A stretch of 30,113 nt of DNA from an uncultured Hippea sp. (GTDB lineage Bacteria > Campylobacterota_A > Desulfurellia > JAADFJ01): assembly GCA_913009315.1 (NCBI GenBank), contig CAJVZA010000017.1, positions 1 to 30,113 on the forward strand, given 5' to 3'. A program made the position numbers and the translations under genes. Of this stretch, positions 16,087-30,113 are shown one piece after another. Under the pieces are notes generated by a model that made no database searches, had not been told where the DNA came from, and worked only from the letters and a program-made list of their open reading frames with translations. The first letter of the stretch is position 1. Every line of letters begins with the position of its first letter.

Positions 16087-17964
16087 TTATCCAAATACTA
16101 CGAAAATAAGTATGAACATGATAAGAATATACAAAATGTAAAAATATACCTTGCCGTTCATGACAAACCTACTTACGGAATAGCTTATTTTTTTAATAAA
16201 TGTCACTATCTGTTTATAGAAAGATTCAAAAACATCACTGATTGCAACATAAGATCTGTTTTTGTTTGTTCTTTCTTTTGTCATATATACAAATCTCAGT
16301 ATATGTTCGATGGTAAACGAAAATGCATTTGCCGTGAAATATTCTTCTTCCTTTAATGCCAAACCGCCGTTCCATGAGGCAACTTTTTTTGTTGTCAACT
16401 TACTTCTAAAATAAATAAGAAATGGAACGACAGACAAAGCGGTAATAACCAGCACAAAGAACGCAGGCGATATCACACCGAACACAGGCTCTGCGCTTGC
16501 CAGGAGCCATCCCTGCGGTATACCGAGAGCACCTATAACAAACTTTGAATAGCCAAGTCCCAAAAACAGATCTGAAGCAAAAAAACTTATTCCGAATATC
16601 ATAGCGATTAAAAACAGTTCAGCCACATTCATAAAGAACGTCGGCATAGGTTCAGCCTTTTTTTCATGGTGGTAGCCCAAAGCGGAATACCCTATAAGTT
16701 TGATCATTGAAAATGATGCAAACCCCATGGCTAATGACAGCAATACTCCGCCTGTTAAGCTTACAACCCTATCCAGAATGCTGGAGAACTGGTAGGACTG
16801 AAAAATAGATTCAAGCAGCATCCATTCTGCCACATATCCTAAGAGCGCCGGAAAAGCACTGAATGATAAACCGGAGATTAGAATACCCAAAGCCGGAATT
16901 TTACCGACACTTTTGTGTATGCCGCGCACGTTATCTATGTTTTCTGCATGAAGTTGTTCTTTCGCCTGTCCTATGGACAAAAACAGGAGCGTTTTTGCTA
17001 TAGTATGCGTTATGGATAAAACAACAGCTGTTAGAAATGCAAATTCGTACAGGGTTGATTTTGTTGAGAATGAATATGCAACCGCAGATAAACCGAGAGC
17101 GGCAAGTATCATTCCGTTGTTTTCGACGGTTGAATATGCAGGCAGAACTTTTAGACCTTTGGCGGCTGCAGCTTCCATTGCTCCCCAGAAAGCTGATACG
17201 CTCCCCAATATTATCGCCAACAATCCCCATACGTGAGTGTATCCTGTTATGTTTATAACTCTTGCAAGACCATATACACCCATAAGCGTAACAGGCGCGC
17301 TCAGAAGAGCAGATGCATTTGAAGGAGCTTTAGAATGCGCTTCCTTAAGCCATGTATGAAACGGCACTATGCCCATCTTTATAATAAAAGCCAAAGATGC
17401 AAATACCAAAAATACAACGCTGTTAGAATCTGCTTTTATTAACACGAATGAGCCGTCTGAGGCGTTTAGTCCTACAAAAGCCAGAATAAGTGCTATTGTC
17501 GATAATTCACCGAAAGCTAAGAATTGAAAAGCTTCTTTGTATGCACCTTCGTGCTCTGTTATCAGAAAATAAGATGCAATGGTCATTATTTCCCACCCGC
17601 TCAAGAACGTCAATGCATCGTAGGCTGTAAGTATCAAAAACATTCCCAGCATAGACAAATTTAAAAATACAGCCATTCTTTTTCTGTAGTGGTTTCCAAA
17701 ATCCAGAGAAAATATTGATACGGCCGTCCATGATATTGCAGCTATCATCAAGAATAAACCGCTTAGACCATCTATATTGATTCCGACAGTTATGTTGGGT
17801 AAAAAACTGAATACAGCCGATAAGGTATTTCCCATAAACTTAGCTTCAAACCCCGCTATAAAAGAGAAAGCAGAAGCAATTATGGCCATCGAATAACTTA
17901 TTTTTCTGCCTATGAATCCTGTAAACGAACCTAAAATATACAAACCTATAATGGTATATATCAT
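16087..17964 (-). CDS. hydrogenase-4/complex I-like antiporter subunit (HyfB / NuoL type)
   Basis: A 625-residue membrane protein with about 14-16 helices, homologous to HyfB, HycC and the Mrp/NuoL antiporter family. Charged residues of the ion path are kept: E125 in LSGWEIMTIASYFL, K196 in FIIKMGIVPFHTWLKEAH with H203, AYSTVENNG, and an ITHTIAKTLLFL lysine. A hydrophobic C-terminal helix follows an amphipathic stretch. It is the last gene of the operon and overlaps the small-subunit gene by four bases. Because the partner hydrophilic subunits have lost their cofactor ligands, ion movement here is probably not driven by hydrogenase chemistry; this is inference. Confidence 0.88.
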   Translation of the reverse strand: MIYTIIGLYILGSFTGFIGRKISYSMAIIASAFSFIAGFEAKFMGNTLSAVFSFLPNITVGINIDGLSGLFLMIAAISWTAVSIFSLDFGNHYRKRMAVFLNLSMLGMFLILTAYDALTFLSGWEIMTIASYFLITEHEGAYKEAFQFLAFGELSTIALILAFVGLNASDGSFVLIKADSNSVVFLVFASLAFIIKMGIVPFHTWLKEAHSKAPSNASALLSAPVTLMGVYGLARVINITGYTHVWGLLAIILGSVSAFWGAMEAAAAKGLKVLPAYSTVENNGMILAALGLSAVAYSFSTKSTLYEFAFLTAVVLSITHTIAKTLLFLSIGQAKEQLHAENIDNVRGIHKSVGKIPALGILISGLSFSAFPALLGYVAEWMLLESIFQSYQFSSILDRVVSLTGGVLLSLAMGFASFSMIKLIGYSALGYHHEKKAEPMPTFFMNVAELFLIAMIFGISFFASDLFLGLGYSKFVIGALGIPQGWLLASAEPVFGVISPAFFVLVITALSVVPFLIYFRSKLTTKKVASWNGGLALKEEEYFTANAFSFTIEHILRFVYMTKERTNKNRSYVAISDVFESFYKQIVTFIKKISYSVSRFVMNGKVYFYILYILIMFILIFVVFG

Positions 17965-18419
17965 TTTTTGTCTCCTGTTATGTTGAGGAGAACAGACAAT
18001 ATCTCACCTGCTTCAAGTTTTTTGTCGTAATAAGCTATAACATTAGGAAGACTCAAATCTCTTGCACTTATGCCGAAATCAGTGCCGTCTTCTACTATTA
18101 TAATGTTAAACGGCTTGGGTAGTTGATTTACCGTTTCCTTTAGCGGTCCAACCATCTTTTCGGAACATCTTCCCAAAACAAGCAAAACATCTGCGTGTCT
18201 CGGTGAGTCTGCAAAAAATATTCCAAATCTATGTATATTATATTGAGGTGCGGCAAGTGCTGCCATCTCAAAATTCAAATCCCCGTTATTGCCTACATCG
18301 ATAGGATATATATTCAAAGATCTGCGGAATATTTTATCCATTTTTCCTGTATTCTCTTCTAATTTTTTAAATGGTTCCGTTAGTTTTCTTGTTATTCCGT
18401 ATAATGCCCACGATTTCAT
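17961..18419 (-). CDS. small-subunit homologue (HyfI / NuoB type) lacking all Fe-S ligands
   Basis: The start is placed at ATG 18419, since GGGG in AAGGTAGGGG lies seven bases upstream; a longer frame to 18449 would overlap the large-subunit gene. The 152-residue product keeps the NuoB/HyfI fold signature, including RFGIFFADSPRHADVLLVLG at 64-83. The canonical first motif DTGSCNGCDIE is DVGNNGDLNFE here (41-51), so cysteines 1 and 2 are N45 and L48. The third (GDCA) is EDGT, and the fourth (PGCPP) is missing with a shortened C-terminus. C85 is the only cysteine. A proximal [4Fe-4S] cluster cannot form by the known pattern. It is probably a structural bridge between the large subunit and the membrane arm. 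Confidence 0.85.
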   Translation of the reverse strand: MKSWALYGITRKLTEPFKKLEENTGKMDKIFRRSLNIYPIDVGNNGDLNFEMAALAAPQYNIHRFGIFFADSPRHADVLLVLGRCSEKMVGPLKETVNQLPKPFNIIIVEDGTDFGISARDLSLPNVIAYYDKKLEAGEILSVLLNITGDKK

Positions 18420-18429
18420 AACAGCACCC

Positions 18430-19659
18430 CTACCTTGCGCAATCCGCAAAATTTATACCGAAAGAATCGAACGAGAAACTAAAATCAGTAAAAATATAAC
18501 CGACAAAAGAATCGGCAAATGCCTTAAATCCAAAAACAGACGGTGTTGAAATATAAACATCCTGAACAATGCCTTTGTTCATATTCACAAAATAGAGAAC
18601 AAGACCGCTTGGAGATTCGCAATATCCCATACCAAAGCCTGAAATGGAAGGCTCGTCTATTTTGCTGTTATTTTGCTGCATTTTTTTGATTTTATCTATT
18701 TGATCTATTACCATATCACATGATAACATTATCTCTTCTGCTCTAACCTGCATCCTTGCAAGCACATCACCTTTATCTTTTGTTATAATCTTAAAATTAT
18801 CGTAAAACTTTTCATACACTCTTAAATCTTCTCTGCATCCTGCAGCCCTGAGAGTAGGGCCTGTAACGCCTATTTCCAAAGCCTTTTTTTGATCCAATAC
18901 GGCAGTTTTATAAAGTCTGTCTATAAAATTCCAGCTTGCGAGACTATGCTCATAAAGTTCCTCAAACTTTTCTTTTATATTCTTAGTTTTCAGAGCCGCT
19001 TCATCCAATTTTTTAAAGTTATTTTTATCTATAAATAAATCGTTTGTATGCTTCAAAAATCTTGAGTTTGAAAACAGCTTATTTGTCCTCAGTGCTTCTT
19101 CAAAAAGTCCTTCCAAATGAGAAGCCAGAACATTTTGGGAGGCTCCTTTTGAAAGACGAGATATAACATACAGATGATTATATATTCTCTCCAGTTCAAT
19201 GCCTATAATTCTTATTCTTTGAGTAACCTCGTCGGACCTGAAACTGCCTGCTTTTTCGACGGCTCTTAAAAAAGCACAGGAGTGCGAGAAAGCAAAGTTT
19301 GAGCATACATTCTCGCTCCAATTTACAGCTTGGTGCAAAGCGGTATTTTTAATCAATGTTTCTATGTTTCTTTTTTTATATCCCGGATCAATATCAACGG
19401 ATAAAATTCTTTCTCCATACGTATATATATTGAATACACCGGCGTCGCCGACACCGCCTGTTACAGGACCGTATCTAAAGTTGAATACCCCGTTTCCTTT
19501 AACTGCTTTAGAGCCTATATGTTTGTCTCTATTTTTGAGCATAGTGTAATTTGCAAACTTTTCTTTTATATTATCGATACTCTCAAGAGAAAGTTGATTC
19601 CTATCCTGCAGAATCAGCAGCTCTTTTGAATCTTTTTCAAGAACGCCAAGCAATCTCAT
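18430..19659 (-). CDS. NiFe-hydrogenase large-subunit homologue (HyfG / NuoD type) without a complete metal site
   Basis: A 409-residue protein resembling group 4 NiFe hydrogenase large subunits and NuoD. It has no fused NuoC-like domain, unlike E. coli HyfG. The N-terminal ligand motif that should read C-G-x-C is C119-S-N-F122 (before AFSHSCAF), and the C-terminal D-P-C-x-x-C is I-N-F404-A-D-C407 just before the end. Two of four NiFe cysteines are therefore phenylalanine. Such proteins are described as Ehr, energy-converting hydrogenase related. No maturation gene (hyp) or C-terminal processing extension is seen. It overlaps the HyfF-like gene by four bases. Confidence 0.86.
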   Translation of the reverse strand: MRLLGVLEKDSKELLILQDRNQLSLESIDNIKEKFANYTMLKNRDKHIGSKAVKGNGVFNFRYGPVTGGVGDAGVFNIYTYGERILSVDIDPGYKKRNIETLIKNTALHQAVNWSENVCSNFAFSHSCAFLRAVEKAGSFRSDEVTQRIRIIGIELERIYNHLYVISRLSKGASQNVLASHLEGLFEEALRTNKLFSNSRFLKHTNDLFIDKNNFKKLDEAALKTKNIKEKFEELYEHSLASWNFIDRLYKTAVLDQKKALEIGVTGPTLRAAGCREDLRVYEKFYDNFKIITKDKGDVLARMQVRAEEIMLSCDMVIDQIDKIKKMQQNNSKIDEPSISGFGMGYCESPSGLVLYFVNMNKGIVQDVYISTPSVFGFKAFADSFVGYIFTDFSFSFDSFGINFADCAR

Positions 19660-21029
19660 CCTGTAATCCCCTTCAAAATATTGTTAATGGCCGGTATTGC
19701 AAATAAAACGCAAAACGACAGAGTAAGATTAATCAAAGGTATTAGTGCGCTTACCCATTCATCCTTTGTCTTTTGAGTAGATTTCCTTTCAGAAAACGAC
19801 ATTTTGGCAACCTTATAGTTTATAGAAAGAAAAGCTGTCAACAGAGCAAGGAGTATAATAATTACATAGGCAAATCCATATATATGATAAACAGCCGAGA
19901 TTATAAAAAATTCACCTATAAATATGGCAAACGGAGGAGCGCCTGTTACAGCCAGCGATGATAGAATTAATCCGTATGCAGTGTACGGCATATTCTTAAC
20001 AAGTGAATAAACATGAGCGATTTTTCTTGTTTTATACGCACTAAGTATATTGCCTGTTAAATAAAAAACCGATGATTTGGCAAACGCATGTGATATTAAA
20101 AGTATCATAGCGCCGAGCAGGCCGGCTTTTCCAAGCGATATACCTATCAGAATCATACCCATATTTTCCATCGAAGAATAGGCAAACATTCTCTTATAAT
20201 ACTTTTGATTGATCATAAATATTGATGCAAATACAATAGTCAAAATACCCAGAATAAACATAAATTGTTTAATATCTTCAAACGGCGCAATTTGAGATAT
20301 ACGTATTATTCCAAACAGGGCAGACGGCAAAAGTACGGACGAAAAGATGGCGCTGACAGGTGCAATGGATCTTCCGTGAACATCCGGAAGCCAGGTATGC
20401 ATGGGGAATATGCCTGCCTTTGTGCCGAAACCCACAATAGCCATAGCTGATCCTATTAAGATTATTCTGCTCTCACTCGCATGATTTTTCAACATATTTG
20501 CAATATTGAGTGTATGTGTCTGGTCGTATATAAAAATTATACCGACAAGTGAAATAACAAGACCGACGGAAACAATAATAATATATCGCCATGATGCCTC
20601 TATAGACGGGAAATTGTTGTCTATTGCAACAAGCAGTGCACTTGTTATTGTCGTGGCCTCTATGCCGATCCAGATTAAGCCTAAGTTGTTGACCATGACA
20701 CTAAAGAACATACTCAGCACAAACAGATTTAAAAAAGCCCAATACAGATTTTTTTTCAAAAGCGGCTTCGGTATATGTTTGAAATAACTGCTGCTGAAAA
20801 TGGATGTGGTTAAATAAATAATGGAAATGGTAACAAGCATTATTTTTGAGATAGCGTCTATGTATAAAAACTGCGTGGATACACTGTTTAAAACCCATAT
20901 ATACAAAGAAACCGGTATGCTTACGGAAGCCGATATCAGCGTCAATATTTTTGATATTTTGTCATTAGCGGCAAAGCATATTACAGCAGCCGAAACCGTA
21001 ACGATAAGCGGAAGGTAGTATAAAAACAT
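19656..21029 (-). CDS. hydrogenase-4-like antiporter subunit (HyfF / NuoN-NuoM type)
   Basis: A 457-residue membrane protein with about 13-14 helices. The proton-path residues of the family are conserved: E124 in IWIGIEATTITSA, K204 in FGTKAGIFPMHTWLPDVHG with H211, YSSMENMGM, and ISHAFAKSSVFYLTG. It would be the second antiporter-like channel next to the HyfB-type subunit. It follows the HyfE-like gene after six bases and overlaps the large-subunit gene by four. Confidence 0.88.
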   Translation of the reverse strand: MFLYYLPLIVTVSAAVICFAANDKISKILTLISASVSIPVSLYIWVLNSVSTQFLYIDAISKIMLVTISIIYLTTSIFSSSYFKHIPKPLLKKNLYWAFLNLFVLSMFFSVMVNNLGLIWIGIEATTITSALLVAIDNNFPSIEASWRYIIIVSVGLVISLVGIIFIYDQTHTLNIANMLKNHASESRIILIGSAMAIVGFGTKAGIFPMHTWLPDVHGRSIAPVSAIFSSVLLPSALFGIIRISQIAPFEDIKQFMFILGILTIVFASIFMINQKYYKRMFAYSSMENMGMILIGISLGKAGLLGAMILLISHAFAKSSVFYLTGNILSAYKTRKIAHVYSLVKNMPYTAYGLILSSLAVTGAPPFAIFIGEFFIISAVYHIYGFAYVIIILLALLTAFLSINYKVAKMSFSERKSTQKTKDEWVSALIPLINLTLSFCVLFAIPAINNILKGITG

Positions 21030-21035
21030 GAATTA

Positions 21036-21674
21036 TTACCCCTTGAATTCCTTAAATTCATCTATAATATTTGAAACATTTTCTTCTCTGAGTCTCATAA
21101 TAATACCGGAAATCATAACTATACCTATTAAATCCAGAAGTATGCCGCCTTCTATAACAAGCGGCAGCTCGGGAAACAGATATCCGCCAAACAAAAACAG
21201 ACTGTTTTCCATAACCATATATCCTATCAACTGAACAAACGCATTATTGCGTGACATAATTAAAAATATGCCTTGAAACAGCAGCGCTATAGGAATAGAC
21301 CCACCCGGCAAGCCTATCGAATTATAAAGCGTGGCGTGATAAACAATATAACCCACAACAACAAAGAAAAGGGATAATACTATAGACATGGCTGTGGGCA
21401 CAACGGATTTTATTTCCCGTTCAAGATAGTATTCTTTCCTGAATTTTTTTCTTATGAAAAAGGGAATAAAAAATCCTCTGACAACAGCAGTAAGAGCGGA
21501 TAGTATAAGCAGATTGATATTATTCAGAATAGCGCCGTCAACAAAAAGAAAGATTGAAATAGCGTACGATGATAAAGAAAATGTATCAACTATCTTTTTC
21601 AGGTAAACCTGCCATTGCATAAAAATTACAAGCGTTATCTCAAGAAATCCAACCATAACAAAAGCTTCTTTCAT
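21036..21674 (-). CDS. hydrogenase-4-like subunit HyfE (NuoK-containing)
   Basis: A 212-residue membrane protein with about six to seven helices, matching HyfE in size and in the central segment MENSLFLFGGYLF, which carries a conserved membrane glutamate seen in NuoK. It links the antiporter-like subunits to the HyfC-type anchor. It overlaps the HyfC-like gene by four bases (ATGA), so translation is coupled. Confidence 0.83.
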   Translation of the reverse strand: MKEAFVMVGFLEITLVIFMQWQVYLKKIVDTFSLSSYAISIFLFVDGAILNNINLLILSALTAVVRGFFIPFFIRKKFRKEYYLEREIKSVVPTAMSIVLSLFFVVVGYIVYHATLYNSIGLPGGSIPIALLFQGIFLIMSRNNAFVQLIGYMVMENSLFLFGGYLFPELPLVIEGGILLDLIGIVMISGIIMRLREENVSNIIDEFKEFKG

Positions 21675-22621
21675 ATAGAGCCTCCGGTTGTGAAATATAC
21701 CAAAATGGCCAGGAATGCAAAAGTAAACGCCACTGCTACATATTCAAAGTTTTTAAACAGTTTGTATTTTGAAACTGTTGATTGGATTGCCGCAAATACA
21801 ACAACAAGAATCAGCATCTTGAGCATATGTATAAAACCATAGATTAAAACACTGCCTAACCCGACCTTCATAGGCACCCAAAACGGAATAAGAAAATCGT
21901 TCAAGAATATGCTCATCAGCAGGAATTGTTTTATATATCCGCCCCATTTCATAAATGCAAGTTCGCTGCCGGAATATTCCATCTCTATTGCCTGATCTAT
22001 CATGCCGAATTCATTGTTTGAATGTGATTCTATAGGTAATTTGCCTGTTTCAATAAGCAGAGCCATGAAAAATGCAAAAACAACAAACCAATGTACTAAA
22101 GAAAAGTACCATTGAGAGGACGTCTGCATAATATTGTTTACCACATATGGATTGTTGGTATGCGAGATAACGCCGAATGTTATAAATATCAAAATGATTA
22201 TGGGTTCGGATAATGCACCTATACTTGACGCTCTCGATGTCCCTAAATGAGAGTAGTTGCTTCTGCTGTCCAGCGATGCTATTTTTTTTAACACTCCTAT
22301 CGCTCCAAAAATAAGACCTCCTCCTATAAAATCGACGATAGGCCCAAAAGACAGCGGAAAAGCGGTAATAATAGGCAATACGAGAGTCAAAATGAGATAC
22401 ATTGAAAATGTTACATAAGGAACTATTTGAAATATAGCCGATGCAGTCTTTGGTACGACGCTCTGTTTGTGAAACAGTTTGTATAAATCATAATAAGGCT
22501 GGAATATGGATGGTCCTTTTTTTGATTCAAATCTTTCCGTAAGTTTAATAAATATGCCTATGATTAAAGGGGACAAAAAAACTACATAAACTAATTGTAG
22601 ACCATTTAAAAGATAAAGCAT
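21671..22621 (-). CDS. hydrogenase-4-like membrane anchor (HyfC / NuoH type)
   Basis: I choose the ATG at 22621, giving 316 residues starting MLYLLNGLQLVYVVFLSPL, the usual HyfC start. A longer frame to 22678 would run through the riboswitch. About eight helices. Family motifs: ESKKGPSIFQPYYDLYKL near 32-49, SLDSRSNYSHLGTSRASSIG on a cytoplasmic loop, and GKLPIESHSNNEFGMIDQA (the region facing the large subunit). It anchors the hydrophilic arm. GGGAG at 22634-22638 is its ribosome site and is part of a switchable hairpin. First gene of the six-gene operon. Confidence 0.87.
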   Translation of the reverse strand: MLYLLNGLQLVYVVFLSPLIIGIFIKLTERFESKKGPSIFQPYYDLYKLFHKQSVVPKTASAIFQIVPYVTFSMYLILTLVLPIITAFPLSFGPIVDFIGGGLIFGAIGVLKKIASLDSRSNYSHLGTSRASSIGALSEPIIILIFITFGVISHTNNPYVVNNIMQTSSQWYFSLVHWFVVFAFFMALLIETGKLPIESHSNNEFGMIDQAIEMEYSGSELAFMKWGGYIKQFLLMSIFLNDFLIPFWVPMKVGLGSVLIYGFIHMLKMLILVVVFAAIQSTVSKYKLFKNFEYVAVAFTFAFLAILVYFTTGGSI

Positions 22622-22633
22622 TTTTTTCAACAA

Positions 22634-22664
22634 CTCCCTGCAGTAAAATAAATTATTGCAGGAG
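22634..22664 (-). promoter_or_regulatory. riboswitch expression platform: Shine-Dalgarno-sequestering hairpin
   Basis: CUCCUGCA (22664-22657), which contains the 3' pseudoknot strand of the aptamer, can pair with UGCAGGGAG (22642-22634), which contains the ribosome site of the HyfC-like gene; one G is bulged. The two pairings are mutually exclusive. Ligand-bound aptamer would release GGGAG (translation on); without ligand the site is hidden. No T-run follows, so the control is most likely translational. Confidence 0.65.
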
Positions 22665-22706
22665 TCGTCGGCTCTCAAAGAGCGATTTCAGGCAAACTCC
22701 ACTGCC
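22658..22706 (-). ncRNA. fluoride riboswitch aptamer (crcB motif)
   Basis: Minus strand, about 23 bases after the predicted transcription start. Stem P1: GGCA (22706-22703) with UGCC (22694-22691), closing the loop GUGGAGUU. Linker UGAAAUC. Stem P3: GCUCU-UUG-AGAGC (22683-22671). Then CGACG and ACUCC (22665-22661), which pairs with GGAGU of the loop as the characteristic pseudoknot. This follows the Thermotoga petrophila fluoride aptamer nearly base for base. From memory of that structure, the A40-U48 pair is kept and the A6-U38 reverse Hoogsteen pair is replaced by G-C, a compensating change. The CGACG in place of UGAUG is less usual. Confidence 0.75.
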
Positions 22707-22735
22707 TTATGTAGATGTAATTTCTATCAAACAGG

Positions 22736-22764
22736 TTTATATACGCCAAATGTGTCAAAGTCAA
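22736..22764 (-). promoter_or_regulatory. sigma-70-like promoter of the riboswitch-controlled Hyf-like operon
   Basis: Minus strand: TTGACT (22764-22759), 17-base spacer, TATAAA (22741-22736). Start predicted near 22729, giving a leader of about 108 bases that contains the fluoride aptamer and its hairpin. Confidence 0.6.
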
Positions 22765-24089: not shown

Positions 24090-24311
24090 ATGAGAAGAAA
24101 GCTTACTATCACTATTGATGAGGAAATATATAAAGGGCTGCACAAATTCATAGGAAAAAGAAAAATCAGCAGGTTTATCGAAGAGGCAACAAGACCTTAT
24201 ATTACAGAGAAGCTTTATGAAAAAGGATATGCCGAAATGGCCAATGACAAGGATAGAGAAAAAGAGGCTTTAGAGTGGTCTGAAGCTTTCATTGAGGATA
24301 TCAACAGATGA
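24090..24311 (+). CDS. ribbon-helix-helix antitoxin (MazE-like)
   Basis: A 73-residue protein. The N-terminus (RRKLTITIDEEIYKGLHKFI) fits a ribbon-helix-helix DNA-binding domain, followed by KISRFIEEATRPY and an acidic, helical C-terminal tail (KEALEWSEAFIEDI) that would wrap the toxin. It represses its own promoter and neutralises the downstream MazF-like toxin. It overlaps the toxin gene by four bases. Strong GGAGG. Confidence 0.88.
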   Translation: MRRKLTITIDEEIYKGLHKFIGKRKISRFIEEATRPYITEKLYEKGYAEMANDKDREKEALEWSEAFIEDINR

Positions 24312-24637
24312 GTTTTCCCAAAAAGGGGGAGGCATGGTGGATTAATTTTAATCCATCAATAGGCGGAGAGATTAAAAAGAAAAGGCCGGCTGTAATTGTA
24401 AGCAATAATACCTCAAATAAATACCTGAATAGAGTGCAGGTTGTGCCTTTGACCTCAAAAACAGAGAAGGTATATCCCAGTGAAGCTCTAATTGATATAA
24501 ATTTGACAAAAGCCAAAGCTATGGCCGACCAGATAGCCACGGTAAGCAAGGAAAGACTTATAGAGAAAATGGACAGTTTGTCGGTAAAAGATATGAATAA
24601 AATTGAAAAGATTATTAAAATACAGCTCTCGGTGTAG
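24308..24637 (+). CDS. MazF/PemK-family mRNA interferase toxin
   Basis: A 109-residue MazF-type endoribonuclease. Family features: GEAWWINFNPSIGGEIKKKR at 7-26 including the catalytic arginine, PAVIVSNN, VQVVPLTSK with the catalytic threonine, and the helix ending MNKIEKIIKIQL. It cleaves mRNA at short specific sites to halt growth when the antitoxin decays. It starts inside the last codons of the antitoxin (ATGA overlap). It forms the intact part of the accessory region next to several broken genes. Confidence 0.9.
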   Translation: MSFPKKGEAWWINFNPSIGGEIKKKRPAVIVSNNTSNKYLNRVQVVPLTSKTEKVYPSEALIDINLTKAKAMADQIATVSKERLIEKMDSLSVKDMNKIEKIIKIQLSV

Positions 24638-26010: not shown

Positions 26011-26110
26011 TAATTATGTAAAATTCAAGCATAATATCGATACTCTGTAGACTATAGACCCTGCTTCGTTTGACAAATACTTATTATCAATATATAAGCG
26101 TAATATGGAT
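26011..26110 (+). repeat. 100-nt direct repeat, left copy, carrying a promoter
   Basis: 99 of 100 bases are identical to 28943-29042, including an 81-base exact core (26030-26110). Similarity extends more loosely left to about 25981 and right to about 26123, with small indels. The two copies frame the TIR, methyltransferase and endonuclease genes (unit length 2,932 bases). Confidence 0.95.
26070..26098 (+). promoter_or_regulatory. promoter within left repeat, leaderless start predicted
   Basis: TTGACA at 26070-26075, a 17-base spacer and TATAAG at 26093-26098. The start of transcription, about seven bases on, coincides with the A of the ATG at 26105, so the mRNA may have no leader. Confidence 0.55.
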
Positions 26111-27097
26111 AAAATGGATGTTATACGTAATGGGAAAGTTATGACACGTCCAAAGGTATTCCTAAGTCATGCCTCTGAGGATAAAGAACGTTTTGTAAAT
26201 GAATTTGCTTTAAAGCTTAGGCAGAACGGGGTGGATGTTTGGCTAGATAAATGGGAAATGTTGCCTGGAGATAGCCTTGTAGACAAAATCTTCGAAGATG
26301 GGCTGAAAGAGGCAGAGACGGTAATAATTGTTCTCTCGAAAAACAGCGTAACAAAACCATGGGTTAGAGAAGAGCTAAATTCTGCGATAGTAAATAAACT
26401 TCAAAAAGGAACTAGAGTTATACCTATTGTTATTGATAAGTGTGAGGTTCCTGAGTCGTTAAAATCTACCCTATGGGAATCCATTAAAGATGTATCTTCC
26501 TACGAAGATAGTTTTGAGAAAATCTTGGCATCAATTCTTGGCGCATCAATTGAGCCAAAAATTGAGGTCGGGCCATCTTATACAGCCTCGGTAATCCATC
26601 AAATTGATGGTCTGGAGGCCGTTGATAACTTAGTTCTAAAGATATCTTGCGAGTCTCTAACTGAGTGGCCTGACGATCCAATAGAACCAGAAAAAATATT
26701 TACAGAAGATAATAGGGAGTCACCGCCAAAATCACAAGTCATGGAATCATTAGAGATTCTCGAAGATCAAGGATATCTTAGTTTGTCCCACTATATGGGA
26801 GGTGGTCCGGAAGCGTGGGGATGCCACTATAGAGTAACGTTGTTTGGATACGAAAAATACTGTAAAGCATACATACCTAATTATGCTGAAATACAAAACA
26901 CAATAGTAAGTGCAATCGTTAATGAGCAAATTTATACCAACCAAGAGCTGAGTAGTAAGTTGGATATTCCTGTAGTTATAACAACGCACGTAGTCAAATT
27001 ACTGGAGAACAATAGTTATATTAAGGCTAGTGGCGAATTGGGAGGAAGGATAGCGATTTATTTTGTTTCAGCTAAACTACGAAGGGCGTTAATATAA
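26105..27097 (+). CDS. TIR-domain protein with winged-helix C-terminal region
   Basis: A 330-residue protein. A TIR domain at about 15-140: KVFLSHASEDKERF at 17-30, WLDKWEMLPGDSL at 47-59, and KPWVREEL at 84-91, where E90 occupies the position of the catalytic glutamate in NAD-cleaving TIR enzymes. The remainder has two probable winged-helix segments (about 211-260, with VMESLEILEDQGYLSLSHY; and 268-325, with ELSSKLDIPVVITTHVVKLL). TIR proteins in bacteria act in anti-phage defence by destroying or converting NAD. The first seven codons lie in the repeat; the ATG at 26141 (MTRPKVFLSHA) is an alternative native start. Its partner genes are a methyltransferase and an endonuclease. Confidence 0.82.
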   Translation: MDKMDVIRNGKVMTRPKVFLSHASEDKERFVNEFALKLRQNGVDVWLDKWEMLPGDSLVDKIFEDGLKEAETVIIVLSKNSVTKPWVREELNSAIVNKLQKGTRVIPIVIDKCEVPESLKSTLWESIKDVSSYEDSFEKILASILGASIEPKIEVGPSYTASVIHQIDGLEAVDNLVLKISCESLTEWPDDPIEPEKIFTEDNRESPPKSQVMESLEILEDQGYLSLSHYMGGGPEAWGCHYRVTLFGYEKYCKAYIPNYAEIQNTIVSAIVNEQIYTNQELSSKLDIPVVITTHVVKLLENNSYIKASGELGGRIAIYFVSAKLRRALI

Positions 27098-27102
27098 TTA
27101 CG

Positions 27103-27149
27103 TATAACAATGCAAATTCACTCGGACAGTCAAAAGTGGCGTTATGTGT
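27103..27149 (+). other. attC-like inverted structure after the TIR gene
   Basis: ATAAC-aat-GC-aaatt-CACT, a 12-base loop, then AGTG-GC-GTTAT. The arms pair perfectly apart from extrahelical bases on one strand, which is how integron attC sites are arranged, and the ends (TAAC...GTTA) match Vibrio-type sites. At 47 bases it is shorter than known attC sites (about 57 or more), and no integrase is present. It may be a shortened relic. Confidence 0.3.
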
Positions 27150-27169
27150 AAAATGGCGCATCCAAATAT

Positions 27170-27997
27170 ATGAGTAAACAAATGAGTAAATCGAAAAAAT
27201 TAAGTTTTCCCGAAGATTTCATAGACAAATTTATCTGTGGAAACGCTGTGGATGTAATGACACAGATACCTGATGGTGCTGTTGACTTAGTTGTTACTTC
27301 TCCACCATACAACCTAAAAAATTCAACTGGAAACGGGATGAAAGATGGTAGAGGTGGCAAGTGGTCAAATGCCGCGCTTATTAACGGGTATTCGCATTAT
27401 GATGACAATATGCCTCATGAAAAATATGTTGAATGGCAAAGAAAATGCCTTTCTGAAATGCTGAGGATTATTCCTGATGATGGTGCTATTTTCTATAATC
27501 ATAAGTGGCGAGTTCAAGCAGGTTTATTACAAGATCGTCATGATATTGTTTCTGGCTTTCCTGTCAGGCAGATAATTATTTGGAGAAGAAAAGGTGGAAT
27601 AAATTTTAATCCCGGATATTTCTTGCCAACCTATGAAGTGATATATCTAATAACAAAACCAAAATTCAAATTGGCAAAAAAAGCAAATGCTCATGGCGAT
27701 GTATGGGAATTTGGTCAAGAGAGTAAAAATAAGCATCCTGCACCATTTCCTCAAGAGTTAATAGAAAGAGTTATATCGTCAACTAATGCAAACATTATTC
27801 TTGACCCTTTTATGGGCTCGGGTACAACGGCAGTTGTAGCAAAAAAACTGGATAGAAAATTTATAGGCATAGATATTTCCCCTGAATATTGCAAAATGGC
27901 AGAAGAACGCCTCATTGACCCACTTTCAATAATAAAGAGAAATAACAAAAGCCAAACAAAACAACAAACATTGTTTGATGTCATAGAGAGCCGATGA
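27170..27997 (+). CDS. type II DNA methyltransferase, beta class (N4-C or N6-A)
   Basis: A 275-residue site-specific amino-methyltransferase. Catalytic motif IV TSPPYN at 43-48 comes before the SAM-binding motif I DPFMGSGTT at 212-220, which is the beta-class order, followed by FIGIDISPEYC. It protects host DNA from the endonuclease encoded immediately downstream. As MvaI/BcnI systems usually use N4-cytosine methylation of CC(N)GG-type sites, N4-cytosine is the likelier product; this is inference. Overlaps the endonuclease by four bases (ATGA). ATG at 27182 is an alternative start. Confidence 0.9.
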   Translation: MSKQMSKSKKLSFPEDFIDKFICGNAVDVMTQIPDGAVDLVVTSPPYNLKNSTGNGMKDGRGGKWSNAALINGYSHYDDNMPHEKYVEWQRKCLSEMLRIIPDDGAIFYNHKWRVQAGLLQDRHDIVSGFPVRQIIIWRRKGGINFNPGYFLPTYEVIYLITKPKFKLAKKANAHGDVWEFGQESKNKHPAPFPQELIERVISSTNANIILDPFMGSGTTAVVAKKLDRKFIGIDISPEYCKMAEERLIDPLSIIKRNNKSQTKQQTLFDVIESR

Positions 27998-28767
27998 AAA
28001 CATATACTAAAGAGAGTTTAATTGAGGCACTTATAGATATTCGCAACCAAGGTTGGGTTCCGACGGGTAGAAAAAATAACGATGGTGGTGTTGGTAATAC
28101 ATTAGAGGATTTATTGGGGATTGAAGAAAATAATTTACCTATTCCTAATGCTGCCGAATGGGAGCTTAAAGCTCAGAAAAAAGATACTACTTCACTGATT
28201 ACACTATTTCATATGGAACCGTCTCCTCGTGCTTATAAATTTGTTCCATCTATTTTATTGCCTGAATTTGGCTGGAGGCATCAAGAGGCAGGCCAAAAAT
28301 ATTCAGATGATGAAAAAAGTTTTCGTCAAACTATCAATGCTTTAAGTTGCAGCAATAGAGGGTTCACCATTAAAGTGGATAGAGGTGACAGGAAAATTTT
28401 AGTCGATTTTGATCCCAATCAAATTGTAAGTGTTGACCATCCCGAATGGATACAATCCGTTTCCAATAAAACACTTGAGCCAAAACCATATTGGGGGTTT
28501 GATGATTTGTATCATAAAGCTGGAACAAAATTACATAACTGCTTTTTCGTATGGGCTGAGTCAAAAAGAATAAATGGAACACTTCATTTTCATTATCAAG
28601 ATATATACATGTTGAAAAAATTTGACCTAAACAAGTTCATTGATGCTATAGAATCAGGTAATGTTTATATCGATTTTGACGCAAGAACCGGACACAATCA
28701 CGGAACGAAATTTAGGCTAAAAAGGGAGTCATTAATCAATCTGTATGCAGAAGTCAAGCGATATTAA
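27994..28767 (+). CDS. MvaI/BcnI-family restriction endonuclease
   Basis: A 257-residue restriction enzyme of the MvaI/BcnI family, monomeric nickase-like enzymes that cut CCWGG or CCSGG. Features: GWVPTGRKN at 20-28, GNTLEDLLGIEENNLPIPNA at 34-53, AEWELKAQKK at 54-63 with E57 and K59 of the catalytic site, LFHMEPSPRAYK, and a late TGHNHGTKFRLKRESL. N52 stands where MvaI has its catalytic aspartate. Translation is coupled to the methyltransferase. The recognition sequence cannot be read from sequence. Confidence 0.85.
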   Translation: MKTYTKESLIEALIDIRNQGWVPTGRKNNDGGVGNTLEDLLGIEENNLPIPNAAEWELKAQKKDTTSLITLFHMEPSPRAYKFVPSILLPEFGWRHQEAGQKYSDDEKSFRQTINALSCSNRGFTIKVDRGDRKILVDFDPNQIVSVDHPEWIQSVSNKTLEPKPYWGFDDLYHKAGTKLHNCFFVWAESKRINGTLHFHYQDIYMLKKFDLNKFIDAIESGNVYIDFDARTGHNHGTKFRLKRESLINLYAEVKRY

Positions 28768-28783
28768 ATCACATAACAAAAAA

Positions 28784-28806
28784 ATGCACCTGACCGCTAT
28801 GTGCAT
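28784..28806. repeat. small inverted repeat after the endonuclease gene
   Basis: ATGCAC and GTGCAT frame an 11-base loop just after the endonuclease gene, preceded by CATAAC. Possible weak terminator or recombination-site remnant; no T-run follows. The gap 28768-29036 also holds the short frame at 28821 and the right repeat copy. Confidence 0.35.
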
Positions 28807-28820
28807 AAGAGGAAATTCAA

Positions 28821-28913
28821 GTGGCAATACCAATAAGGCAAAAAATATATAGTGACATAAACAGAGTCGCGGAAACGCAGTTTTATCTAAGATCAAGCTG
28901 GCTGACTCCTTGA
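28821..28913 (+). pseudogene. truncated 30-codon frame ending at the repeat junction
   Basis: GTG start with AGAGGA ribosome-like sequence upstream, encoding MAIPIRQKIYSDINRVAETQ then ten more residues, and stopping two bases into the region that matches the left repeat flank (from 28906). It looks like the 5' end of a gene that was cut off when the repeat-bearing segment arrived. Family unknown. Confidence 0.35.
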
Positions 28914-28942
28914 TTCTTATGATTATGCATAATACATATAAT

Positions 28943-29042
28943 TAATTATGTAAAATTCAAACATAATATCGATACTCTGTAGACTATAGACCCTGCTTCG
29001 TTTGACAAATACTTATTATCAATATATAAGCGTAATATGGAT
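28943..29042 (+). repeat. 100-nt direct repeat, right copy, carrying a promoter
   Basis: Matches 26011-26110 with one mismatch. Both copies end in the same ATG and first codons of the gene that follows. Right of the core this copy has an additional ATGGAT unit. Sequence about 28906-28942 is also similar to 25981-26010 with small indels. Confidence 0.95.
29002..29030 (+). promoter_or_regulatory. promoter within right repeat
   Basis: TTGACA at 29002-29007, 17-base spacer, TATAAG at 29025-29030; predicted start at 29037, the A of the leader-peptide ATG. Confidence 0.55.
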
Positions 29043-29114
29043 ATGGATAAAATAGATGTTAGCTTTCCGGCGTGGTATTTGACATTAGCTAATATATGTA
29101 AGATGAAGGGATAA
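29037..29114 (+). CDS. 25-codon leader frame, probably coupled to the nuclease
   Basis: ATG at the predicted transcription start, encoding MDMDKIDVSFPAWYLTLANI and five more residues. The stop (29112-29114) lies two bases before the TTG of the nuclease, and the nuclease ribosome site (AAGGG, 29106-29110) is inside it. The frame could be a leaderless leader peptide whose translation feeds the nuclease. Its first codons are shared with the TIR gene through the repeat. Confidence 0.4.
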   Translation: MDMDKIDVSFPAWYLTLANICKMKG

Positions 29115-29116
29115 TT

Positions 29117-30113
29117 TTGCAGAAATATAAAAAAATTGTCGAAAGAATAAATGAATTGAAACGTCCAAAGGTTGAAACTAATATTTTCTCAATTGGTGGT
29201 AGGGGGCATTATGAAAATCCAATTAGCGATATATTGGCATTTTTTGTTGACCCGAAAGAGGATCATAGTTTTGGCGGGTTATTTCTTCAATCATTCTTCA
29301 AAGGAGCGGGAAAAGAGTCACCGCTACTTGAGTTAGTTGATTCCCCGATAAGAGAGGTTTGCACTGAAACTGGAAATAGAATTGATTTGATCGTTGAAGG
29401 TGATAATTGGGTATTGGTGATTGAAAACAAAATAAGACATGCAGTTATAAATCCATTCGAAGACTATGAGAAGTATGCGAATAAAGTGTATAATCAAAAA
29501 ACGATCATATATATTTTATTAACGGTCAAAGAAGAAATAACTCCACCATGCTGGATAAATGTTACATATGAAAATTTAATATCTCACCTTAAAAAAGATA
29601 TCGGTGAATACTTTGTATCCGCTACTAATACCAAGTGGCACATGATTTTAAGAGAATTCATTTTAAATTTAGAAAATGAATATGTGGATAAAAAAATGAT
29701 GAAAGAACGTATAGAATTTGTTAGAAATAATTATACTGAAATTCAAGAAATGAAAGACATGCTAGGTGAATATGTCAGCTATATGAAAAGTATGGTCGTA
29801 TCTTTGTTAAAATCAGAGGATAAATCTGAAGAAAATTCAATAGCAATAAAGCAGCATGACTGGGGTAAAGAAGGTGTTGCATTGAGGTTTATTTCTAATA
29901 AGTGGGGAAGTAAAACAAATATTACGCTTTTATTGAGGAAAGATGGATTACTAAGAATACAGCTATATTTTCATGACATAGAAGAAGACAAATTTTCCTT
30001 AATAAAATCAAAAGTAGATAAAAGTAAATATAGGAAAGTATGGACGGAATCAAAGACAATTAGATGTTTCGGTTTTTTTGACAGCTCCGATCAAAACCGT
30101 ATATTCCATGAAA
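29117..30113 (+). CDS. PD-(D/E)XK nuclease family protein (incomplete at right edge)
   Basis: Open from TTG 29117 to the window end (332 codons seen), with AAGGG six bases before the start. N-terminal part matches the PD-(D/E)XK superfamily group often annotated PDDEXK_4: NPISDILAFFVDPKEDHSFG at 34-53, GGLFLQSFF, and the catalytic core RIDLIVEGDNWVLVIENKI at 88-106 with D90, E103 and K105. Such proteins occur in defence islands and are thought to be nucleases; target unknown. The helical middle and C-terminal parts are unrecognised. Confidence 0.78.
   Translation, partial: MQKYKKIVERINELKRPKVETNIFSIGGRGHYENPISDILAFFVDPKEDHSFGGLFLQSFFKGAGKESPLLELVDSPIREVCTETGNRIDLIVEGDNWVLVIENKIRHAVINPFEDYEKYANKVYNQKTIIYILLTVKEEITPPCWINVTYENLISHLKKDIGEYFVSATNTKWHMILREFILNLENEYVDKKMMKERIEFVRNNYTEIQEMKDMLGEYVSYMKSMVVSLLKSEDKSEENSIAIKQHDWGKEGVALRFISNKWGSKTNITLLLRKDGLLRIQLYFHDIEEDKFSLIKSKVDKSKYRKVWTESKTIRCFGFFDSSDQNRIFHE

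Follow-up and report, generated by a model that had tools for sequence, protein, structure and literature searches.

Introduction

Why should a fluoride-sensing RNA stand in front of genes that resemble those of a hydrogenase? The question is raised by a stretch of 30,113 nucleotides from an uncultured Hippea sp. (the window), for which the initial annotation had proposed a crcB-motif aptamer followed by a six-gene Hyf-like operon and had mentioned a link between this motif and formate hydrogenlyase genes. This link is real: an association of the fluoride riboswitch with "formate hydrogen lyase" was reported in 2010 (Weinberg 2010, PMC2864571), and a review of 2024 explains it by formic acid oxidation and metabolism (PMC11139923).

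A fluoride riboswitch in front of six hyf-like genes

The RF01734 model aligns over its full length (1–64) with the leader of the operon and scores 40.3 bits against a gathering threshold of 34 (E 4.9e-08); it is the sole Rfam match within the window (Table 1). In an alignment of 33 hyf-linked aptamers, that of the window included, pairing of the pseudoknot is complete (100% of cells), and both partners vary in four of its five pairs (GGAGU/ACUCC, GACAU/AUGUC, GACGU/ACGUC, GGCAU/AUGCC and others). Stem P1 is paired in 99.2%, with both-side changes in three of four pairs. When the partners were shifted by one to three columns as a control, pairing fell to 40–53%. The proposal of a fluoride aptamer was to stand or fall with a covariance-model match and with covariation among relatives, both of which were found. 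Score and covariation thus confirm a genuine fluoride riboswitch, whose ligand response is predicted; a chance resemblance is ruled out by the covariation together with the conserved linkage described below.

Downstream of the aptamer the genes follow in the order hyfC, hyfE, hyfF, hyfG, hyfI, hyfB, in agreement with the six-gene operon first described. Translation of hyfC probably begins at the ATG at 22621, the listed TTG at 22678 falling within the aptamer.

Table 1. Positions of the riboswitch, the operon and neighbouring features in the window.
Feature	Positions	Strand	Evidence or remarks
Possible promoter	22736–22764	-	TTGACT 22764–22759, 17-nt spacer, TATAAA 22741–22736; by eye
Fluoride riboswitch aptamer (RF01734)	22652–22715	-	covariance model 40.3 bits, covariation
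Alternative hairpin, expression platform	22629–22670	-	fold z -4.2; same design in relatives
hyfC-like (NuoH/HycD-like) membrane subunit, 316 aa	21671–22621	-	7z0s_D, E 2.4e-30
hyfE-like membrane subunit, 212 aa	21036–21674	-	NF008556, E 5.9e-10
hyfF-like antiporter-type subunit, 457 aa	19656–21029	-	E124, K204, K279, K318, E373 conserved
hyfG/NuoD-like large subunit, 409 aa	18430–19659	-	without NiFe cysteine ligands
hyfI/NuoB-like small subunit, 162 aa	17961–18449	-	without the four FeS cysteines, without ferredoxin domain
hyfB-like antiporter-type subunit, 625 aa	16087–17964	-	E125, K196, K272, K324, E380 conserved
PemK/MazF-like toxin gene	24308–24637
Likely defence cluster	26105–30112		TIR/SEFIR protein, N4/N6 DNA methyltransferase, MvaI/BcnI-type restriction enzyme, PDC-S26/PDDEXK_4 protein running off the window end

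Upstream of the aptamer lies a plausible candidate promoter. The "good promoter" of the initial annotation is supported in so far as both hexamers can be read by eye; it is absent from the list of a consensus promoter scanner, which demands a T at the end of the second hexamer.

The expression platform, overlooked in the initial annotation, can be interpreted as a switch acting on translation. Two partners are open to the 3′ strand of the pseudoknot (GACUCC): GGAGUU in the loop of the aptamer, and the ribosome-binding site GGGAGUU of hyfC (Shine-Dalgarno region at 22634–22638, minus strand). The hairpin formed with the second partner excludes the fluoride-bound fold. This hairpin is present in the minimum free energy fold of the leader, calculated without the pseudoknot (-34 kcal/mol versus a mean of -21.4 for shuffled sequences). 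In relatives from Desulfurellales, Thermotogae and Bacteroidetes the Shine-Dalgarno partner is likewise the pseudoknot 3′ strand, with one exception among those in which a Shine-Dalgarno sequence was recognised by the script (in five relatives it recognised none). As this strand is able to cover the ribosome-binding site, a translational ON switch is predicted, with translation turned on by fluoride. A transcription terminator was also considered as expression platform and was dropped, as none was found.

Recognisable redox centres are lost and the ion-channel residues are kept

HyfG aligns with the large subunits of membrane-bound hydrogenase (6cfw) and of E. coli formate hydrogenlyase. The AF2 model of HyfG (pLDDT 92) finds its best PDB match in the latter (7z0s_E, TM 0.82), and that of HyfI (pLDDT 82) in membrane-bound hydrogenase (6cfw_J, TM 0.67). 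Within this fold, however, the metal ligands are missing. CSNF takes the place of CGIC in HyfG, so that the first NiFe motif retains a single cysteine, and the second motif, a C-terminal cysteine pair, is absent; none of the full-length relatives that were read shows the NiFe ligand motifs. HyfI aligns with NuoB/MbhJ and has none of the four cysteines of the proximal FeS cluster. Related bacterial operons, here called cysteine-poor, retain one or two of these positions in some cases (e.g. L044, L050, L054), and all four occur in none of the members scored, a set without L046 and L048. No genes for formate dehydrogenase or electron-transfer subunits were found among the window reading frames adjoining the operon, and none for a ferredoxin domain within it.

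The glutamate and lysine residues of the HyfB and HyfF channels, on the other hand, are kept in at least 95% of the members of the cysteine-poor clade and in nearly all other relatives, and many invariant charged residues are retained in HyfG. The electron-carrying part thus appears to be lost and the ion-carrying part kept. Judged from the sequence, all recognisable redox centres are gone from the window complex, which can therefore be neither a hydrogenase nor a formate hydrogenlyase, a point missed in the initial annotation; a true enzyme of either kind was ruled out on these grounds. Nor do the sequences read here support the formic acid explanation (PMC11139923).

Linkage to the riboswitch across phyla and two domains

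When genomes were scanned with HyfG, 80 loci were obtained. The closest described systems are the Ehr (Ech hydrogenase-related) complexes, NiFe-less relatives of group 4 hydrogenases of unknown function (PMC12342949). In a quick tree with long branches outside the cysteine-poor clade, the C-E-F-G-I-B operons for the most part branch apart from operons that have the canonical Ehr order, B-C-E-F-G-I. The cysteine-poor bacterial operons form one clade (SH-aLRT 100), which spans Campylobacterota, Thermotogota, Bacteroidota and unplaced bins; its neighbours are Thermoplasmatota with the HyfI cysteines kept.

A riboswitch is located upstream of all 19 assessable cysteine-poor operons, of 15 of the 23 other C-E-F-G-I-B operons and of one of the 26 canonical-order Ehr operons, counts that apply to homologues of a NiFe-less seed and say nothing on true hydrogenases elsewhere. 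For the first against the last group Fisher's test gives p 8e-12, a value that overstates the evidence because related sequences are not independent. Four of the 19 riboswitches score below the Rfam cut-off and were recognised by a custom model, R1, together with sub-threshold Rfam matches at the same place. R1 was trained on hyf-linked aptamers, and its additional matches (L034, L046, L050, L052, L061, L066, L068) lean on this training; all except L061 also have sub-threshold Rfam matches in whole-genome searches, paired by contig coordinates.

The linkage is found in Desulfurellales (the lineage of the window), Thermotogae, Bacteroidetes, Thermoplasmata, some Nitrososphaerota and Burkholderiaceae. 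Its conservation across phyla and two domains was missed in the initial annotation. The archaeal and Burkholderiaceae versions retain their FeS cysteines, from which it follows that a shared function may originally have been redox-driven.

The single canonical-order case is an Elusimicrobia Ehr operon with a riboswitch directly upstream of hyfB (L088, 2367–2445). The linkage is hence not confined to the C-E-F-G-I-B group.

Association with fluoride genes

Several operons are found in the company of known fluoride genes. Two Bacteroidetes loci (L047, L048) show the series riboswitch, crcB, DUF190, hyfC in one direction. In Paraburkholderia (L102) the hyf operon is situated amid riboswitch-preceded genes for DUF190, pyrophosphatase, enolase and a CLC protein, whose best match is the solved fluoride/proton antiporter 6d0j (E 7e-59). 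At L045 and L049 divergent mutS-like genes, named by eye, have a riboswitch of their own. DUF6062-like genes recur near hyf operons (L041, L043, L045, L047, L048, L052); in two of these loci, L047 and L048, they follow a fluoride riboswitch distinct from that of the hyf operon.

Among 25 genomes of the window's class, 20 have both riboswitch and complex and five have neither; for three of the 20 the assignment rests on the hyfC end or on the riboswitch located at the edge of a contig. CrcB was found in none of the 25; it is present in 10 of 33 genomes with the complex. About 30 of the 90 CLC matches in the class were inspected; they have the GREGP motif of Cl-/H+ exchangers, in contrast to the GREGT of the L102 CLC-F. 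The better-scoring CLC of the window genome matches Cl- exchangers only.

Apart from hyf, the sole target recognised for the riboswitches of these 20 genomes is a gene for a dynamin-like GTPase. In the window genome a second fluoride riboswitch (47.5 bits; L001 1501–1561, corresponding to 51441–51501 of contig C3 of G000) is followed by a gene of the dynamin family (PF00350; L001 1580–3061). Similar genes follow a riboswitch in L012, L017, L020 and L031, and one lies farther downstream in L008.

A proton-coupled ion transporter as the probable function

Taken together, the riboswitch probably governs a six-subunit complex stripped of its redox centres that would act as a redox-independent, H+-coupled ion transporter, either a pH-restoring antiporter or a fluoride exporter. 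Fluoride binding would let the pseudoknot form, which would free the ribosome-binding site and turn on hyf translation. The complex would then run without electron transfer, with the passage of protons or cations through HyfB and HyfF coupled to the movement of another ion, whose identity is a guess. Either the cytoplasmic pH would be restored after HF entry by an Mrp-like antiport, the more likely outcome, or fluoride would be driven out of the cell. A further electron path or a separate redox protein may serve the complex. The suggestion of the initial annotation that the complex helps the cell to cope with fluoride or HF stress by moving ions holds up and is still to be read as a suggestion.

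Na+/H+ antiporters are the commonest class linked to fluoride riboswitches after the exporters. This favours the pH-restoring antiport, as does the fact that in some genomes the complex occurs alongside known exporters. The Mrp antiporters (e.g. 7qru, 7d3u) are likewise redox-free and possess two antiporter-type subunits with conserved Glu and Lys (MrpA/D-like). However, they lack the HyfC/HyfG/HyfI module, and genes for MrpB, C, E, F and G were not recognised here.

It is possible, although unlikely, that the complex itself is the fluoride exporter, with H+ influx via HyfB/HyfF expelling fluoride through HyfC/HyfG/HyfI, the former quinone/redox chamber of this module having been turned into an anion site. 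The main argument for export is the missing CrcB in the class; moreover, 20 class genomes carry fluoride riboswitches, yet only Cl-type CLCs occur among those inspected, a check that reached about a third of the matches. Four basic HyfC residues specific to the cysteine-poor clade (K131, K132, R139 and H144 in TTG-start numbering; 21671–22678) point the same way. From general knowledge of NuoH, we take this stretch to lie near the old quinone chamber, where the four residues form a possible anion site. On the other hand, Bacteroidetes and Burkholderiaceae have the complex alongside CrcB or CLC-F, which argues against its being simply the exporter, and we know of no precedent for anion transport in this superfamily. 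CrcB/Fluc and CLC-F share the riboswitch family and sometimes an operon or island with the complex, but as proteins they are unrelated to Hyf-like subunits. That a redox-stripped relative of complex I and hydrogenases constitutes a third type of fluoride exporter, driven by the proton-motive force, is a rather improbable proposal.

Persisting redox chemistry is very unlikely. Here the complex would be a formate hydrogenlyase/hydrogenase-4 or a ferredoxin-driven Ehr pump, induced to rebuild the proton-motive force or to adjust metabolism. The overall Hyf subunit set and fold, the FeS cysteines of archaeal and Burkholderiaceae relatives and the name used in the literature (PMC2864571, PMC11139923) speak for it; the missing NiFe motifs and HyfI cysteines and the operon without formate dehydrogenase or ferredoxin-domain gene speak against it. 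Compared with E. coli formate hydrogenlyase/hydrogenase-4 (7z0s), the window complex shares the subunit folds and the membrane arm and lacks the NiFe site, the FeS cysteines of HyfI and a formate dehydrogenase in the operon. With Ehr it shares Hyf/complex I-like subunits without NiFe ligands and differs in gene order, in a shorter HyfG N-terminus, in the riboswitch and in the FeS cysteines, which are lost in the bacterial clade and present in canonical-order relatives.

Least probable of all is that ion flux is coupled to some other non-redox reaction, of the kind exemplified by CO2 hydration in DabAB or NDH-1MS-Cup complexes: NuoL-like subunits do couple to non-redox modules and the invariant charged residues of HyfG would fit, but no metal-site motif was identified and we know of no link of fluoride to such a reaction.

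Implications

In a literature search that covered only a minority of subscription papers, no paper was found that ties Ehr to fluoride or describes missing FeS cysteines; the redox-dead nature of the complex and its clade-wide linkage to the riboswitch appear to be new. If these complexes are incapable of redox chemistry, then a conserved element of the fluoride response has been misinterpreted, and the list lacks one type of transporter. They would also represent a natural relative of complex I whose membrane machinery works without electrons, and would help with a question still open for complex I, namely how it links its chemistry to the pumping of ions.
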